From IMG/VR virus record IMGVR_UViG_3300017788_001950, positions 1 to 64,000 of that record: 64,000 nt of DNA, one strand, 5' to 3'. Shown here in pieces: positions 52,894 through 63,343 of this stretch. Below the pieces are notes generated by a model. That model was not told the DNA's origin. It saw only the letters and a program-made list of their open reading frames with translations, and did not search any database. The stretch is from a virus. Numbering within the stretch: position 1 is the first letter of the stretch; every line of letters starts with the position of its first letter. The position numbers and the translations under genes are program-made.

Positions 52894-52914
52894 ACCATTT
52901 GAATATCTTCTTTT

Positions 52915-53972: not shown

Positions 53973-55046
53973 TTATCGGTACGTTGATTTTGTGGCTAAA
54001 GACTGAGGAATAAGAGCAGCAGAGCGAATTCCGTATTGGGATTTTTGCTTGAACTCCGCTAGGGTTCTAGAGTTTGCATAGGAAAAGGCACTTTGAAGCC
54101 CGCCCTTGATATTAGCGAGCACGTCCACGGCACTTTTGTTAGAAGCCGGAATGAGAGTGGAAATGCCCTCTGCCGTTGGGAGAGAGGAATTGCTTGGCTT
54201 AATGGTAAGCATTGCATCATGGCTAGCCATGCCACGGTAGACTTTCTGATTACCGATGCGCTCACCCGGAGCCTCAATACAGTCGGCAAACATTCTGCCG
54301 CACATCACCATATCGGCACCAGCACACAGAGCCTTTGCAATGTCACCAATCTCAGAAATACCACCATCAGCCACCAATAAGGGCTTGAAGCCCCCGCGAG
54401 CCCCGTTGAACCCCCGGCTACCATCGTAAGAGTCTAGAGTTTCACGGCACGCAAGAACAGCCGAGAACTGTGGAACGGTAACGCCAGTTACATTCTTCGT
54501 TGTGCAGACCTCACCTGGCCCGATTCCAACCTTGATAATGTCAACGTCCCACGAAACGAAGTTTCTCACGGCCGATGGAGTTGCCACGTTTCCGGCCATA
54601 ATCAAAATGTCCTTTCCAAAGGACTTACGAAGCCAAGTTACCATGTCCTTCATCAGCAAAGAGTTTCCGTGGGCCACATCCACAACAAAGGCTCGGGCTC
54701 CAAGGATGAACAGAGCCTTGGCTCTTTCCTTACTCTCCTCATTGACTCCAATGCTCACAAAGCATTCCATGCCAGAGTTGGCATACATTTCTCCGTTACG
54801 GAGAATGGGAGAGAATCTGTGAAGTGCCCCGATGCCACCACCCTTTCTCATTGCAACACACATGGCTTCCTCGGTTACCGTATCCATGTTGGCAGAGATT
54901 ACCGGAACGTCCAGAACCCAACCATTCGGGAGAGTAAAGGAAGTGTCCACGAGGGACCTTGAGGAAACCTCACTGTATTGAGGAATGAGAAACACGTCCT
55001 TGTAGGACAGGGATTGCTCAAAAGGGGCAGTGGGCTTTTTCAGCAT
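53973..55046 (-). CDS. IMP dehydrogenase / GMP reductase family protein (no CBS domains)
   Basis: Barrel signatures: LSYKDVFLIPQYSEVSSR, VPVISANMDTVTEEAM, GGIGALHRF, IKVGIGPGEVCTTKNVTGV (Cys loop, IMP-binding), PLLVADGGISEIGDIAKAL and YRGMASHDAM. At 357 residues it lacks the CBS pair, as GMP reductases and some IMPDHs do. KNVTGVTVPQFSAV favours GMP reductase, YRGMASHDAM favours IMPDH. It would shift the guanine nucleotide pool. Between a glycosyltransferase gene and the nuclease, in the same direction. Confidence 0.85.
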   Translation of the reverse strand: MLKKPTAPFEQSLSYKDVFLIPQYSEVSSRSLVDTSFTLPNGWVLDVPVISANMDTVTEEAMCVAMRKGGGIGALHRFSPILRNGEMYANSGMECFVSIGVNEESKERAKALFILGARAFVVDVAHGNSLLMKDMVTWLRKSFGKDILIMAGNVATPSAVRNFVSWDVDIIKVGIGPGEVCTTKNVTGVTVPQFSAVLACRETLDSYDGSRGFNGARGGFKPLLVADGGISEIGDIAKALCAGADMVMCGRMFADCIEAPGERIGNQKVYRGMASHDAMLTIKPSNSSLPTAEGISTLIPASNKSAVDVLANIKGGLQSAFSYANSRTLAEFKQKSQYGIRSAALIPQSLATKSTYR

Positions 55047-55057
55047 TAGGGCTCCAT

Positions 55058-55966
55058 TCAGATTTTCTGCAAAGTGCTATTCCAGAAAGCACTTGGACGG
55101 GAGCGCAGATACTCCATAGTGACCGAGGCGGCTACGTCTTTAAACCATTTCTCGAGGCGATGTTGCACATTCTCATTGAGGTCAAGCCTTAGGCCCAAAA
55201 GGCTGGCTTCCACCACGAGGCGAGGGCATGTGTCAAAGCCCAAGGGATGGAACACCAATCCCTCGTATTGGGAGAGGTGCTCCAGAAAGGTGCGGTATTC
55301 CAGTCCGCCCAAAAGCTCATAGGGCATGGACTTAGAGGTGCAATAGTCCTCTGTATTCTTTTGGTTCTTAATCCAGGAGCCACCAGATAGTACCGCCCAG
55401 GTTCCCTTCTTGGTTCGAACCTCGGGTGCCTTTTTGAGACTAAGGATGAAGTCGAGGTCCTCGGGCTTCCAAACACTGGAAAGGACTTGGGTGTTGGTCC
55501 AGGTTTTCATGTGAGGAAACCGAAGCTCATATTCCTCTTTCTGACCCTCACTCATAAAGAAAACCGATTGAGCCCTCTTGTAGAGCCCAACCGGGAAATT
55601 CTTGGTCAGGTGGCAATCGCATGGAGACTTGGTTTGCAATTCATGGAGGTGACTTGAACGGTGCTTGCAGTATTTGTAGTCATACTCCACGCACACATAC
55701 TTGCAACCCTCGGTCACCAGGGCAATGAGACCTTCCTTAGGACTCATGCTCCAGTTGCAAAGCACCCAGGTAAGGTGCTTGTTCTTCTCCACAATCTCAG
55801 GCGTGAGGGAAACGCTATGGAGCTTAAAAACACGAAGACCGGGCGCAGACGAAATCAGCGCCTCGGTCGTCAATTCAGCCCCGCCCCTGTAGTCCTCAAC
55901 AAACAAATCAGCCACGAACACAACGTCAGTATTTTTGGGAATCTGCGTTTCGATGGTAAAGGTCAT
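55058..55966 (-). CDS. glycosyltransferase, GT-B/GT4-like, outside the main island
   Basis: The N-terminus has VFVADLFVEDYRGGAELTTE (acceptor-site GGAE pattern). The C-terminal region GLVFHPLGFDTCPRLVVEAS is the GT4 donor-site pattern (E near the end). 302 residues. The middle is Cys-rich (KYVCVEYDYKYCKHRSSHLH, SPCDCHLTKNF). It overlaps the S24/S26-like gene by four bases. So a glycosyl transfer step is also encoded 4 kb upstream of the island, separated from it by the nuclease, tRNA-like and small genes. Confidence 0.75.
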   Translation of the reverse strand: MTFTIETQIPKNTDVVFVADLFVEDYRGGAELTTEALISSAPGLRVFKLHSVSLTPEIVEKNKHLTWVLCNWSMSPKEGLIALVTEGCKYVCVEYDYKYCKHRSSHLHELQTKSPCDCHLTKNFPVGLYKRAQSVFFMSEGQKEEYELRFPHMKTWTNTQVLSSVWKPEDLDFILSLKKAPEVRTKKGTWAVLSGGSWIKNQKNTEDYCTSKSMPYELLGGLEYRTFLEHLSQYEGLVFHPLGFDTCPRLVVEASLLGLRLDLNENVQHRLEKWFKDVAASVTMEYLRSRPSAFWNSTLQKI

Positions 55967-57038: not shown

Positions 57039-57938
57039 TCAGGACTCGGTGGTGCGACGAGCAGGAACAGCCGGGCCAGTGGGAGTCATGTCGATTCCGT
57101 TGGCATCGGCCACATCACGGATCTGATCCACGCCCAAGCCGGTGCCAGCCAGGAGACCCGCAAGCTCCTCGGCAGACGAAGGCTCAGGGTTGGAGGGAGC
57201 CGTCGAGGACTCAGAAGCCTCTGGCGAGGCAAGGGCAGCTTCCTCGGTCGCAGGAATCGGGGCAGGAGGGGTCGGCGGATTGATACCGAAGGCACGGGCA
57301 ACAGCCTCCATTTGCTCAGGCGTGAGCGACACGCCCCCTGAGGCTGCAATGGCCTTTGCCAATTCCTCAGGCGTGGTCGGAGGTGCCGCAGGGGGCGCAG
57401 GCGGCGCAGCCGCCACGGGTGCCGTGGGGGCAGCAGCATTGGGATCAGGCTCCTTAGGAATCAGGAGCTTGATTTCCTTCTCCCGCTCGATCCCATAAGG
57501 GACCAACTTCTCGGGCTCGGCAGGATCGGGACGATAGAGAATCTCGAAGTAGGTGAGAGCCAGGCCAGCAGACACGTCCTCGAACGTGAAAGAAACCTCT
57601 TCCTCAAGATAAAGGTCCTTTCCGGTGGCAACGTCGTTCTCAATCTTGGTAAGCTCGATCAGGGTCGGAACCCAACCTTCCTTCTCACGATGAAGAACAA
57701 TGCCCACCCGATCACCAGGAAGCATTGCGTCAAACTCAGCCGCCGTGGCCTCCTCGTCATCCACGAAACGACCCTCAAGAAGGTCAGAAACGCTCTCCGA
57801 GGGCAAAAGAGCCATGAGCTTCGTAAGGGCCTCGCTTGAGTCACGATTGGCTCGCCCACAATACCGCTTCTCCGAAGGGTGCTTGTTGAGCTTCACCATG
57901 ACTTTCTTTACGTCGAAATCGTTGACATTGATCGTCAT
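57039..57938 (-). CDS. possible independent gene nested in frame in the prim-pol 3' end, 299 aa
   Basis: ATG 57938 has GGAG with a six-base spacing, and an extended -10 promoter (TTAAAC, 17 bases, TATACT at 58000-58028) lies about 60 bases upstream. Composition changes here to Ala/Pro-rich, more C/G at third positions, as in the DUF7873-like gene. Residues 1-200 are acidic (LPSESVSDLLEGRFVDDEEA, SFTFEDVSAGLALTYFEI). No family recognised. The prim-pol stop may have been lost, or both products are made. Confidence 0.5.
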   Translation of the reverse strand: MTINVNDFDVKKVMVKLNKHPSEKRYCGRANRDSSEALTKLMALLPSESVSDLLEGRFVDDEEATAAEFDAMLPGDRVGIVLHREKEGWVPTLIELTKIENDVATGKDLYLEEEVSFTFEDVSAGLALTYFEILYRPDPAEPEKLVPYGIEREKEIKLLIPKEPDPNAAAPTAPVAAAPPAPPAAPPTTPEELAKAIAASGGVSLTPEQMEAVARAFGINPPTPPAPIPATEEAALASPEASESSTAPSNPEPSSAEELAGLLAGTGLGVDQIRDVADANGIDMTPTGPAVPARRTTES

Positions 57939-59333
57939 CTGCATCTCCATTTGATTCTGCGTACCAGCCGAAGGAAGGCTGAGTTTTCCACTACCTCTAA
58001 GTATAACACACTTTGAGCCAGGGTTTAAACCATTATCTAGCAAGGAAAAATCGACGTTCCACAGGTTTCCTCGGTTGGTTCTCTTTCTTTTGAAGCCCAT
58101 ACTCTCAAGTTTCTTTGCCAGAAGGGCCTGGGGGTACTTTGAGTGCTTAGGAATTTCCCTGTCCCGGAAAAACTTGTCTCTCTCCTGAGAGACCAGGGAG
58201 AGACTTACCCAGGTTTCCTGATTTGGTTTCTCCGAGGTTCCCTTGGAAAGACCCTCAAAGAATTGACGATCTGCCAGAAGCACCCTTTCCTTTTGCTCCG
58301 AGGTCATGGGTCCGGTCTTGGATCTATCCATGTACTCAAAGAATGCTGAGTTGACATTCTCATAGGAGGTGTTGCGGGCCTGATATTTGAGTACCTGATT
58401 GAGAGTTGCCCTAAGCTCCACATCGGTGACAGGGCTGGTTTCCATAGAGGAGGCCTGGGCCACATACTTCTTGGAGTTGGCCAGGAGTTGGGTCTCGGTG
58501 TGTCCCTGAGCACGGTCAGAACTCAGAAGTCTGTGGATAACGCTGTTACGAATGCCATTTGGGATGCTCCTACCCTGAGCAAGCATCTTTCGAATTTCTG
58601 ACACACTCACATCGGTCCACTTCTGGATTTCCAAGGGATCAATATTGGACTTTACCTTTCCAAGGCTTGGAATAATTCCCTCCGTCATCGGTCGGGCTGT
58701 CTTTTGCTTTGCCTGATTCTTCTGGTCCAGAACCTCCAAAACGAACACGGGAAGATCGGCTATGTCCCAGCATGATTCCTCTGGAAGCTCATAGTTGAGC
58801 CCAGAGACATGTCTTGAGGGCGGAATTACCACATACCCGTTCTCGCCTCTCACATCCACACTTGGAGCTAACTTGGAAACGCTGTTGGCAATCGGAAAGC
58901 TCGACCAGAACCAGAAGTGATGACCCCTGGATCCTGTTCGATAGGAGAATGTCCTAGGGAGTTTTTCCAGAATGGGATGCTCCTGGGCATCCACATCAAT
59001 CACCACGAGAAATTTCCCATGAGAGGGACTCCACCTACCAGTGCTCACAGCAAGGTTAAACTTGTCCGGGTTACCAAACCACATGTCCAATTTGGATTTC
59101 TCGAAGCTTCCGAGATTCTTCCAGTTTTTACGGTAGAAGGGATGCTTCCCCGCAGAGGCACAGGAGGGCTTTCCGCAGGAGCACTTGCCCTGTGTGGTGG
59201 TGAACAGGGGGAAAGCAGGCAGTGAGTGCCCGGACAGGAATTCTATCAGTTTTGCTTTTTGAGATTCCATGCTCCGAATGTTTTGGGTTTCTGGGAAAGA
59301 CGCAAGACCAAGGGTGGAAGTTGAATTTGACAA
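57039..59333 (-). CDS. DNA primase-polymerase (prim-pol) with C-terminal extension, 764 aa
   Basis: Residues 1-465 contain an AEP/prim-pol domain: a Cys/His cluster (CSCGKPSC, then KH; 51-64), FLVVIDVDAQEH (catalytic DVD 113-115), SRGHHFWFW (135-143) and SVDVRGENGYVVIPPSRHVS (158-177). This is the Bifunctional DNA primase/polymerase N-terminal family. Residues 466-764 look like another protein: VKKVMVKLNKHPSEKRYCGR, then an acidic beta region, then Ala/Pro-rich (AAPTAPVAAAPPAPPAAPP). An internal promoter and ribosome site precede ATG 57938. The TTG start at 59333 is uncertain; ATG 59270 is an alternative. Confidence 0.75.
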   Translation of the reverse strand: MSNSTSTLGLASFPETQNIRSMESQKAKLIEFLSGHSLPAFPLFTTTQGKCSCGKPSCASAGKHPFYRKNWKNLGSFEKSKLDMWFGNPDKFNLAVSTGRWSPSHGKFLVVIDVDAQEHPILEKLPRTFSYRTGSRGHHFWFWSSFPIANSVSKLAPSVDVRGENGYVVIPPSRHVSGLNYELPEESCWDIADLPVFVLEVLDQKNQAKQKTARPMTEGIIPSLGKVKSNIDPLEIQKWTDVSVSEIRKMLAQGRSIPNGIRNSVIHRLLSSDRAQGHTETQLLANSKKYVAQASSMETSPVTDVELRATLNQVLKYQARNTSYENVNSAFFEYMDRSKTGPMTSEQKERVLLADRQFFEGLSKGTSEKPNQETWVSLSLVSQERDKFFRDREIPKHSKYPQALLAKKLESMGFKRKRTNRGNLWNVDFSLLDNGLNPGSKCVILRGSGKLSLPSAGTQNQMEMQMTINVNDFDVKKVMVKLNKHPSEKRYCGRANRDSSEALTKLMALLPSESVSDLLEGRFVDDEEATAAEFDAMLPGDRVGIVLHREKEGWVPTLIELTKIENDVATGKDLYLEEEVSFTFEDVSAGLALTYFEILYRPDPAEPEKLVPYGIEREKEIKLLIPKEPDPNAAAPTAPVAAAPPAPPAAPPTTPEELAKAIAASGGVSLTPEQMEAVARAFGINPPTPPAPIPATEEAALASPEASESSTAPSNPEPSSAEELAGLLAGTGLGVDQIRDVADANGIDMTPTGPAVPARRTTES
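57998..58006 (-). promoter_or_regulatory. TACTTA late-promoter-like motif, inside prim-pol gene
   Basis: On the minus strand TTATACTTA. It overlaps the -10 of the internal promoter. Same string type as at 60197, 60974, 63361 and 13419. Could serve the nested 299-aa gene. Confidence 0.45.
58000..58028 (-). promoter_or_regulatory. extended -10 promoter inside prim-pol gene
   Basis: TTAAAC, 17 bases, then TATACT with TGT just upstream (extended -10). A start would fall about 55 bases before ATG 57938. Confidence 0.5.
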
Positions 59334-60995: not shown

Positions 60996-62246
60996 TCAAA
61001 CGATACCCATGACTACGATATCAGTGGCCCCTGCGGGTGGCGAGCCAACTTGAAAGACATAGTTAGCCCCAATTCTCCCACGATACAAAAAATTGCTTGT
61101 GACAATTGTCTGAGATACTACTGTCACAATAGGATCGGTGGTTCCAAGGCGATCAATGTAAACGCCAGCACCACCACTTCTTCCAAGCACATCAGAGCCG
61201 GTAAGGAAAATGGAGGAAGAATAATGGGAACCGCTTGGTGCCGTCCCGGACCAATGCATAGTGATTGTTGGAGTGGTCTGGTTGGTTGAAGAGAGCACCA
61301 GTCGTGACTCGCCTGGTCCTAGCCTCGAATAACTTCTCAGATCCTTGTAGGTAACACGCAGAGCATTCAGGATTCCCACATAAGCACCACCGGTTTCCTG
61401 AGAAACCAGAAGGATGGGATACTCCAAGACACTCGGAACGAAAGAAGTGCTTAGAGGAATTGGTGAACTATAGTTGACATAGTAGTCAACCCGAACACTT
61501 TCTGGCAGGGGGATACTAGCCGTAACAGACCCCTGAGAATTGGAAATGTACAACAGTGCTGCATCTTGGTTTGAGGTATTGGAAGTATTTCCATAGGTTA
61601 TCGTTCTTTCAAGCCATGTATTGGCTGTGCCATTTGAGGTCCACAAAAAGAATGGCAGCGTGTATTTGTTGTTGACAGGAATAAATCGTTCAAAGTGAAA
61701 AATGAAGTTGACGGCCCCGTTGTTTCCTTCATCCAGAGCAAACGTGAATGAGTCATTGTCACCAGAGGCCTGCATCAATTGATAGTCGGCCGTAGTCGAG
61801 CCTGCAATGGTTGAGAAATAATCCTTGCTTCCAGATATGTCACCACCGGCCGATACCTGACGAGCCATGACTGCGGAGCCAGCCTTAAAAGGCGGATTTG
61901 GATGTAGGTCCTCAGGATTGTTTGTGGTACCATTCCAGGCCTCACCACTAGAATGTGCTCCCACAGCCAAGCCCACACCAAAGTCAGCATTAATGGTCCA
62001 GTCTGTCCAAAACTGGTTCCAGGACCATTTGCAAATTACGTCAAATTTGTTTGTGCCAGATACGGCTCTCCAGACCCTGAAGGCATTGTTTCCGTCAGGC
62101 GGTGAACCTGTATTGGAGGCAATTCTTTGAAAGCCGGGATGCGTGTCAAAGAATTGCGAAACACCGTTGAAAAGGTTAAGATTTCGATCGTTGGCGCTTG
62201 AACCAGTTACGAGATAGTTTTTCAGTGTGTGAATGGGGCCGCTCAT
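60996..62246 (-). CDS. virion structural protein, paralogue of the 366-aa neighbour, 416 aa
   Basis: Shares the opening (MSGPIHTLKNYL.., then FFDTHPGFQRIASNTGS) and overall layout with the protein at 62243-63343. Both have FTFALDEGN/WSWNQFWTDW-type strands and a conserved DYYVNYSSPIPLS-like end. The ATG overlaps the upstream stop by four bases. Probably a minor virion or fibre component. Ser/Thr-rich. Duplication is clear; function is not. Confidence 0.65.
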   Translation of the reverse strand: MSGPIHTLKNYLVTGSSANDRNLNLFNGVSQFFDTHPGFQRIASNTGSPPDGNNAFRVWRAVSGTNKFDVICKWSWNQFWTDWTINADFGVGLAVGAHSSGEAWNGTTNNPEDLHPNPPFKAGSAVMARQVSAGGDISGSKDYFSTIAGSTTADYQLMQASGDNDSFTFALDEGNNGAVNFIFHFERFIPVNNKYTLPFFLWTSNGTANTWLERTITYGNTSNTSNQDAALLYISNSQGSVTASIPLPESVRVDYYVNYSSPIPLSTSFVPSVLEYPILLVSQETGGAYVGILNALRVTYKDLRSYSRLGPGESRLVLSSTNQTTPTITMHWSGTAPSGSHYSSSIFLTGSDVLGRSGGAGVYIDRLGTTDPIVTVVSQTIVTSNFLYRGRIGANYVFQVGSPPAGATDIVVMGIV

Positions 62247-63343
62247 TCAAAGGTTCCTCTCAGGAAGTAATCAATAGAGCCAGAGTATGGCAAGGCGAAA
62301 GAGAAATTTCGGCTGTTGGTTGTATTTTCTATCTTGAAAGTCACATAACTTCTGGAAACATCCTGTAGGTTTCCGAACGCAGAGGCACCAATAGCCAAAA
62401 CTCCAGACAGAACGCCCAATTGATGATAGTGACCAGACTCATAGGAAGAGAGTAGGATAGGAAATCCGTAGCTCCTGTCGTTTACGCCATCCATTAAAAT
62501 GCTAGCCGGACGAGGAGCTCTTCTAGGAGCATTCAAAAGTGAGGATAGTCTGCCAGTCCTACTTCCAACATCAGAGCCAGATATGTAAGCCACCCCGCCG
62601 TTAAACGGGGGTGAGTTAATGCGTTCGTCGTTAATTTCACCAAAATTTACTTCTGGCCTTACTGAAGAACCACAGTACATGAAGAGTGGAAGATTATATG
62701 CCGAGGTCAGTGGTGTGTAGGTACCCCAGGCCCAGAAGTAACGCGAATCTCCAATAATGCTAGCATCTGCGCTCTGTGCAAATGCATATGTTGTCTCATC
62801 GTCACCAATCACCGTAACTTGCCAAAGATCATTTAGCGACAAAACAGTAGATACAAGCTTTAGTGGTGCATTTTGGTTAGTCGCCCAAGTACCACCTACA
62901 GAATTGGCTCGTGGAAAGACCACAGAGCCAGTTTTCCACGGTCTGCTACTTGTCAAAAAGGCGTCAGTTCCGTTGTTGTTAACCGAACCACTCCAGGCTG
63001 CACTGGAGGAATGCCAGGCCATCATGATGCCAGCTCCAAATGTCTGATTCCCGGTCCAGGTGCCAGCAGTATAGTTGCTGTTGTAGGACCACATTAGGGC
63101 AATGTCGTAGTTTTTTGAACTTGACACTGATCTAAAAATAACAAAGGCTTGCTCGCCAGAGGAACCGGAAAAGAAGTAGGAGTTTTCTAGGCCCGTGCCG
63201 TTCGTTCCATAATTTGAGGCAATGCGTGTGAAATTGGGATGCCTATCATAATATTGAACAAAGGTTGTGAACAGTTCCCTTTCGGAAATAACAGCATCCG
63301 TTGGCTCAAAAAGTCTAGTGAATGTTCTGATGGGTCCAGGCAT
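62243..63343 (-). CDS. virion structural protein, paralogue of the 416-aa neighbour, 366 aa
   Basis: Opening MPGPIRTFTRLF, then YYDRHPNFTRIASNYGTNGT, parallels the downstream protein (HPGFQRIASN). Ends in GSIDYFLRGTFE. It lies at the start of this structural sub-block, just after a hairpin terminator, and a TACTTA motif is about 20 bases upstream of the ATG. Tandem duplication of a virion gene is the likely origin. Confidence 0.65.
   Translation of the reverse strand: MPGPIRTFTRLFEPTDAVISERELFTTFVQYYDRHPNFTRIASNYGTNGTGLENSYFFSGSSGEQAFVIFRSVSSSKNYDIALMWSYNSNYTAGTWTGNQTFGAGIMMAWHSSSAAWSGSVNNNGTDAFLTSSRPWKTGSVVFPRANSVGGTWATNQNAPLKLVSTVLSLNDLWQVTVIGDDETTYAFAQSADASIIGDSRYFWAWGTYTPLTSAYNLPLFMYCGSSVRPEVNFGEINDERINSPPFNGGVAYISGSDVGSRTGRLSSLLNAPRRAPRPASILMDGVNDRSYGFPILLSSYESGHYHQLGVLSGVLAIGASAFGNLQDVSRSYVTFKIENTTNSRNFSFALPYSGSIDYFLRGTFE

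Follow-up and report, generated by a model that had tools for sequence, protein, structure and literature searches.

A primase frame running into a second gene that retains its own promoter-like and ribosome sites in an uncultured phage

Within the window, the 64-kb stretch of a 65.7-kb virus record (IMG/VR) that was analyzed as a whole, one open reading frame probably gives rise to two proteins: a protein of ~32 kDa that starts at ATG 57938 and a primase run-on of ~82 kDa, with the second gene keeping what appears to be its own promoter and ribosome site inside the joined frame. The original prediction had offered two options for this locus, either a fusion of two genes by loss of a stop codon or one locus that encodes a primase and, in addition, a separate protein. 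As the stop codon is absent and the signals of the second gene are kept, the two options are compatible with each other and thus not mutually exclusive. The features of the locus are as follows.

57039 to 59333, minus strand: whole joined frame, 764 aa, from TTG 59333 to the stop at 57039, with zero internal stops
58056 to 59270, minus strand: Prim-Pol primase part (PF09250 match), with its 3' limit at the conserved LWN
58000 to 58032, minus strand: internal promoter-like site, TGGTTTAAA-N18-TATACT with an extended TG
57939 to 58055, minus strand: linker and putative former intergenic region, 39 codons from the primase end to Met 57938, predicted to be disordered
57945 to 57948, minus strand: Shine-Dalgarno-like GGAG, six bases before ATG 57938
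57039 to 57938, minus strand: nested gene, 299 aa, 31.7 kDa; standalone homologues start at or near the equivalent residue
57042 to 57449, minus strand: Ala/Pro-rich C-terminal tail, 136 residues, A+P 41%, GC 0.67, low model confidence

In the mechanism that we propose, two adjacent phage genes, a Prim-Pol primase followed by the small nested gene, lie in one open frame. As the primase is not followed by a stop codon, the putative promoter of the nested gene (GTTTAAA and an extended TATACT) and its GGAG/ATG 57938 fall inside the linker. The ~32 kDa protein would be made from a transcript of its own and possibly, through internal initiation, from the longer transcript as well, and translation of the primase message would result in the ~82 kDa fusion. 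The internal promoter would give the 32-kDa protein a separate timing and dose, and the fusion could perhaps serve to tether the primase to the partners of the nested protein.

The listed start of the joined frame, TTG 59333, is probably too early. The starts of the relatives align with ATG 59270, which places the primase start there and shortens the fusion to 743 aa, with a computed mass of ~82 kDa. Residues 40-195 of the frame match Prim-Pol PF09250 (E 1.6e-20, 74.6 bits versus a Pfam gathering cut-off of 22.8), and the DVD and GxHxxF-like motifs are conserved, with D92, D94, and H118 being invariant among 11 relatives. We take these to be the acidic and histidine motifs that form the active site of archaeo-eukaryotic primases. 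Prim-Pol was the only Pfam match in the whole frame, and the C-terminal 299 residues, which are encoded in the same frame and end at the same stop codon, had none.

Single-sequence scans with each half of the frame as query returned zero relatives. Relatives were first reached via the PhoH and baseplate genes of the contig, after which the whole records were searched, and further members came from searches with alignments of the primase, of the nested domain, and of one conserved neighbor. With a profile of the nested domain, we found 17 distinct loci, all from uncultured phages, in which the domain is either standalone (10 loci: L103, L104, L105, L106, L190, L269, L270, L274, L276, and L278) or joined to the primase (seven loci: the window, L107, L191, L202, L117, L193, and L229). 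L107, which is found in G013, has its frame joined in the same way as the window. The collection of cultured phages that was searched contained the primase domain at 25-34% identity and no detectable copy of the nested family, which was also not found in bacterial genomes scanned with a six-sequence alignment.

The suspicion that homologues would have a stop codon between the two parts was borne out, as the primase ends 3-11 residues past the conserved WN in 10 relatives and, in four split relatives, 3-9 residues past the last conserved residues. In G002 (locus L104), a primase of 392 aa terminates with its own stop codon and a separate reading frame beginning with MTMKMDREITIKRRKHP follows 57 bp downstream; L105 has the same split arrangement with a gap of 58 bp. 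In L103 and L106, the gap between the primase and the nested gene harbors an extra gene of 434 aa and 263 aa, respectively. These two inserts (L103:3505-4809 and L106:4120-4911, the latter LamG-like by eye) are unrelated genes located exactly between the primase and the nested gene, which gives the junction the appearance of an insertion site. G028 and G029 each encode the primase and the nested domain in distant genes of one record, and in L276 and L278, the nested-domain gene is located downstream of a gene that by eye resembles a large terminase. Since the nested domain is standalone in 10 loci and distant from the primase in G028 and G029, it is, judged by homology, a gene in its own right, in agreement with the initial impression that the C-terminal 299 residues represent another protein. 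The first residue of this family usually corresponds to Met 57938 in the alignment of the homologues.

As to the idea that the two genes were fused by loss of a stop codon, the homologues have the stop codon that the window lacks, but the direction of the change is left undecided by the primase tree. In this tree, the split clade is firm (100/100) and the fused sequences are without firm grouping and have long branches, so that neither the fused nor the split state is marked as ancestral, and both a stop loss and a stop gain in the split clade are compatible with it. The split loci L103-L106 form a single clade and were counted as one case. A short match at the junction, ..QEIS-S.. in L202 versus ..QEIS-stop in L116, is suggestive of what a lost stop codon may look like.

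The neighborhood downstream of the nested gene is stable among the relatives and comprises an IMPDH/GMP-reductase-like gene (PHROG 9582, E 4e-81) and a conserved gene without assigned function (53973-55046 and 55058-55966 in the window). In loci that lack the nested domain after the primase, a different conserved gene of ~365 aa with a TRSCNDVRHCSRC motif takes its place, again after a short promoter-like gap (L114:6255-7358, with equivalents in L113, L115, L116, L118, and L119). Elsewhere in the window, two adjacent look-alike genes (60996-62246, MSGPIHTLKNYL..., and 62243-63343, MPGPIRTFTRLF...) probably encode duplicated virion proteins.

The nested protein had been described as Ala/Pro- and GC-rich from ATG 57938 onward. 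This applies to the last 136 residues (57042-57449), but not to the first 163 residues after the ATG, which have an A+P content of 12% and a GC content of 0.53 and are predicted to fold. The predicted folded domain covers residues 8-161 of the nested protein, with a pLDDT of about 90 over most of its length, and consists of an N-terminal strand, three helices, a small barrel, and a C-terminal strand. In the model, the nested protein thus folds independently and includes an SH3-like barrel. The domain is without a match in Pfam, PHROG, or NCBIfam, and a structure comparison with the PDB gave zero matches at E <= 0.001; the best match had a Z of 6.1 over 81 residues and was to generic small barrels (Pelota, Tudor, L19). 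One match was obtained in a viral structure library (E 6.3e-4), with a poor superposition. As the structural matches were common small barrels alone, we assign no function on this basis. In the tail, a helical segment is duplicated (TTPEELAKAIAASGGVSLTPEQMEAVARAFGI / SSAEELAGLLAGTGLGVDQIRDVADANGI), with a similarity that was reached by 0 of 1000 shuffles.

The extended -10 promoter that had been noticed upstream of ATG 57938 is indeed present, with TATACT at 58000-58005 as part of the extended -10 TGTTATACT and GTTTAAA at 58024-58030, together 62-92 bases upstream of the ATG. Inside the frame of the window, the site reads TGGTTTAAACCCTGGCTCAAAGTGTGTTATACTT. In the split relatives, the gap between the two genes contains TAGTTTAAA-N17-TATATT or TATAGT, followed by a GGAAA-type ribosome site and an ATG, all of which are outside coding sequence. 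We trained a promoter matrix on the non-coding DNA of five relatives only, with the window excluded, and found that the site inside the window frame scores 24.5 and ranks first in the 64 kb on both strands, the runner-up scoring 16.8. This score was reached by 0 of 200 shuffled 64-kb sequences and by 0 of 20,000 linker shuffles, and the two-box pattern occurs a single time in the whole record. It is only the full two-box site that stands out, as GTTTAAA by itself shows no enrichment in the window (5 occurrences versus 6.7 expected). The match of the internal site to the intergenic promoter-like site of the relatives supports the original prediction, and from this match we infer promoter activity of the internal site.

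This type of site is common to the window, the split clade, and L190 only. The best sigma70-like score of the window site had a p of 0.01 versus shuffles; among the other fused frames, a good sigma70-like site is present in L117 (p 0.01) and a marginal one in L107 (p 0.07), and the scan of L191, L202, L193, and L229 revealed nothing above chance. In the relatives, the two-box motif recurs between the conserved neighbor gene and the IMPDH-like gene, which suggests that it represents a class of promoter in these phages. The motif or a weaker form of it was also seen in other short gaps upstream of nucleotide-metabolism genes (L105:6711, L103:6750, L107:7579, and position 52897 on the minus strand of the window). 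The structure of the leader RNA showed nothing special (z 0.79).

The ribosome site ascribed to ATG 57938 is present as well, with GGAG at 57945-57948. Its Shine-Dalgarno pairing of -6.4 kcal/mol is not significant alone in comparison to the 33 other ATGs of the frame (p 0.09), and the locus-by-locus values of p 0.03-0.29 are not strong in any single case. Over all seven fused frames, the internal Met is preceded by stronger Shine-Dalgarno sequences than the other ATGs of the same frame (Fisher p 0.002). A fusion conserved in relatives without an internal start had been named as an outcome that would speak against a nested gene. The fusion does recur in six relatives, but each of them has an internal Met at the junction, and most have a plausible Shine-Dalgarno sequence.

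The linker between the two parts looks non-coding and disordered, and the models and its composition are consistent with former intergenic DNA. It has a GC content of 0.44 and a GC3 of 0.38, versus a GC3 of 0.59 upstream and 0.63 downstream, and AlphaFold2 assigned most of it a pLDDT of about 30-46, with a folded part on either side. When codon scores were compared leave-one-out, six of the seven fused frames had linkers that ranked low among coding windows; the window linker was marginally atypical (0.06), and that of L117 resembled ordinary coding sequence (0.96). Protein similarity was not detected between the window linker and those of the other fused frames, among which only the L191/L202 pair is similar.

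Such an unconserved, non-coding-like linker would also be expected if the fusion were an unused accident, with the frame being open by chance, the short protein being functional, and the run-on being tolerated. Shuffling gave a chance of an open linker of 0.056 for the window and 0.10-0.22 for four other fused loci, before an in-frame factor of one third, and for the window this product is low, but not impossible. What speaks against an accident is that the primase and the domain are joined in 7 of the 11 loci in which they are adjacent or one inserted gene apart, which is far above chance if the loci are counted as independent cases. We regard an accident as a serious possibility that falls somewhat short of an even chance; it has the two-gene part in common with our preferred explanation of two products from one locus and differs from it only on whether the fusion matters. 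As the two parts are joined at this junction in six other phages too, the open frame from the primase to the nested gene may be kept by selection in these uncultured phages, via promoter-bearing, otherwise unconstrained former intergenic DNA. The proportion of joined loci supports this proposal, short of proof, and we rate it as less likely than not.

The joined frame of the six relatives could likewise reflect a single fusion protein, in which the primase has taken up the second gene as its C-terminal domain, with the internal start and the promoter-like site left as remnants. The junctions of L191 and L202, which are similar at the protein level, would fit this, and so would the drift of the original MT start, which is LT in L191. 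However, remnants should decay, whereas the two-box site and the Shine-Dalgarno sequence of the window are intact amid unconserved protein sequence, and in 10 loci the domain functions as a gene by itself, so that we consider a fusion protein as the only product to be improbable. That a sequencing or assembly error deleted the stop codon or shifted the frame is very hard to believe and was set aside, because, although the locus is known from one metagenomic contig and a near-identical contig over the junction was not found, the two parts are joined in the same place in six contigs of other metagenomic origin and the coding sequence is intact on both flanks.

If the open frame is indeed kept by selection, one DNA segment would act as promoter, leader, and protein linker together, and the phage would have a primase tethered to a small barrel protein as well as a separately controlled free supply of that protein. 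The separate state, the separate state with an inserted gene, and the fused state of one gene pair coexist in related phages, as in a gene fusion that is part-way, and the fused state still holds the promoter-like site and the ribosome site of the second gene. Ordinary gene calling would report one primase of 764 aa and miss a protein family that is absent from Pfam, PHROGs, and NCBIfam.

The locus appears to work like several known systems, namely gene 4 of bacteriophage T7, RepB' of RSF1010, and the two-polypeptide endolysins, and by analogy it resembles each of them, membership in any of them not having been found. T7 gene 4, which acts in phage replication, has an internal in-frame start and thereby gives 63- and 56-kDa forms. 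Its product is a DnaG-type primase-helicase, and the short form is the helicase, which is the same protein minus a small domain. The likeness is thus the internal in-frame start in a phage replication gene; the difference is that the short T7 form is the same protein shortened, whereas the short product here would belong to a separate family. The 56-kDa form is named in the reference list of PMC9198812. The RSF1010 RepB/MobA and RepB' locus produces a long fusion that includes the primase and, by way of an alternative in-frame start, a shorter protein, both of which were reported to be real (PMC6854812), and the same output of one in-frame locus is predicted here from the sequence. In RSF1010, however, it is the primase that forms the short product, and the N-terminal part is a relaxase, whereas the window frame has its primase at the N-terminus and an unrelated small protein as the nested product; Pfam matched no relaxase domain in the window frame, which is thus not of the MobA/RepB relaxase-primase type. 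Two-polypeptide phage endolysins have internal start sites, in-frame overlapping reading frames with a common stop codon, and their own ribosome sites (PMC9430671; Ms6 LysA, PMC3111421). The shared stop, the own ribosome site, and the same relative position in related genes are found here as well, but the endolysin isoforms assemble into one enzyme, whereas the nested gene also occurs as a family of free-standing genes and has a promoter-like site inside the frame. In-frame nested genes are therefore already known, and the present locus is a variant in which the nested gene belongs to an unrelated family and is accompanied by an internal promoter-like site.
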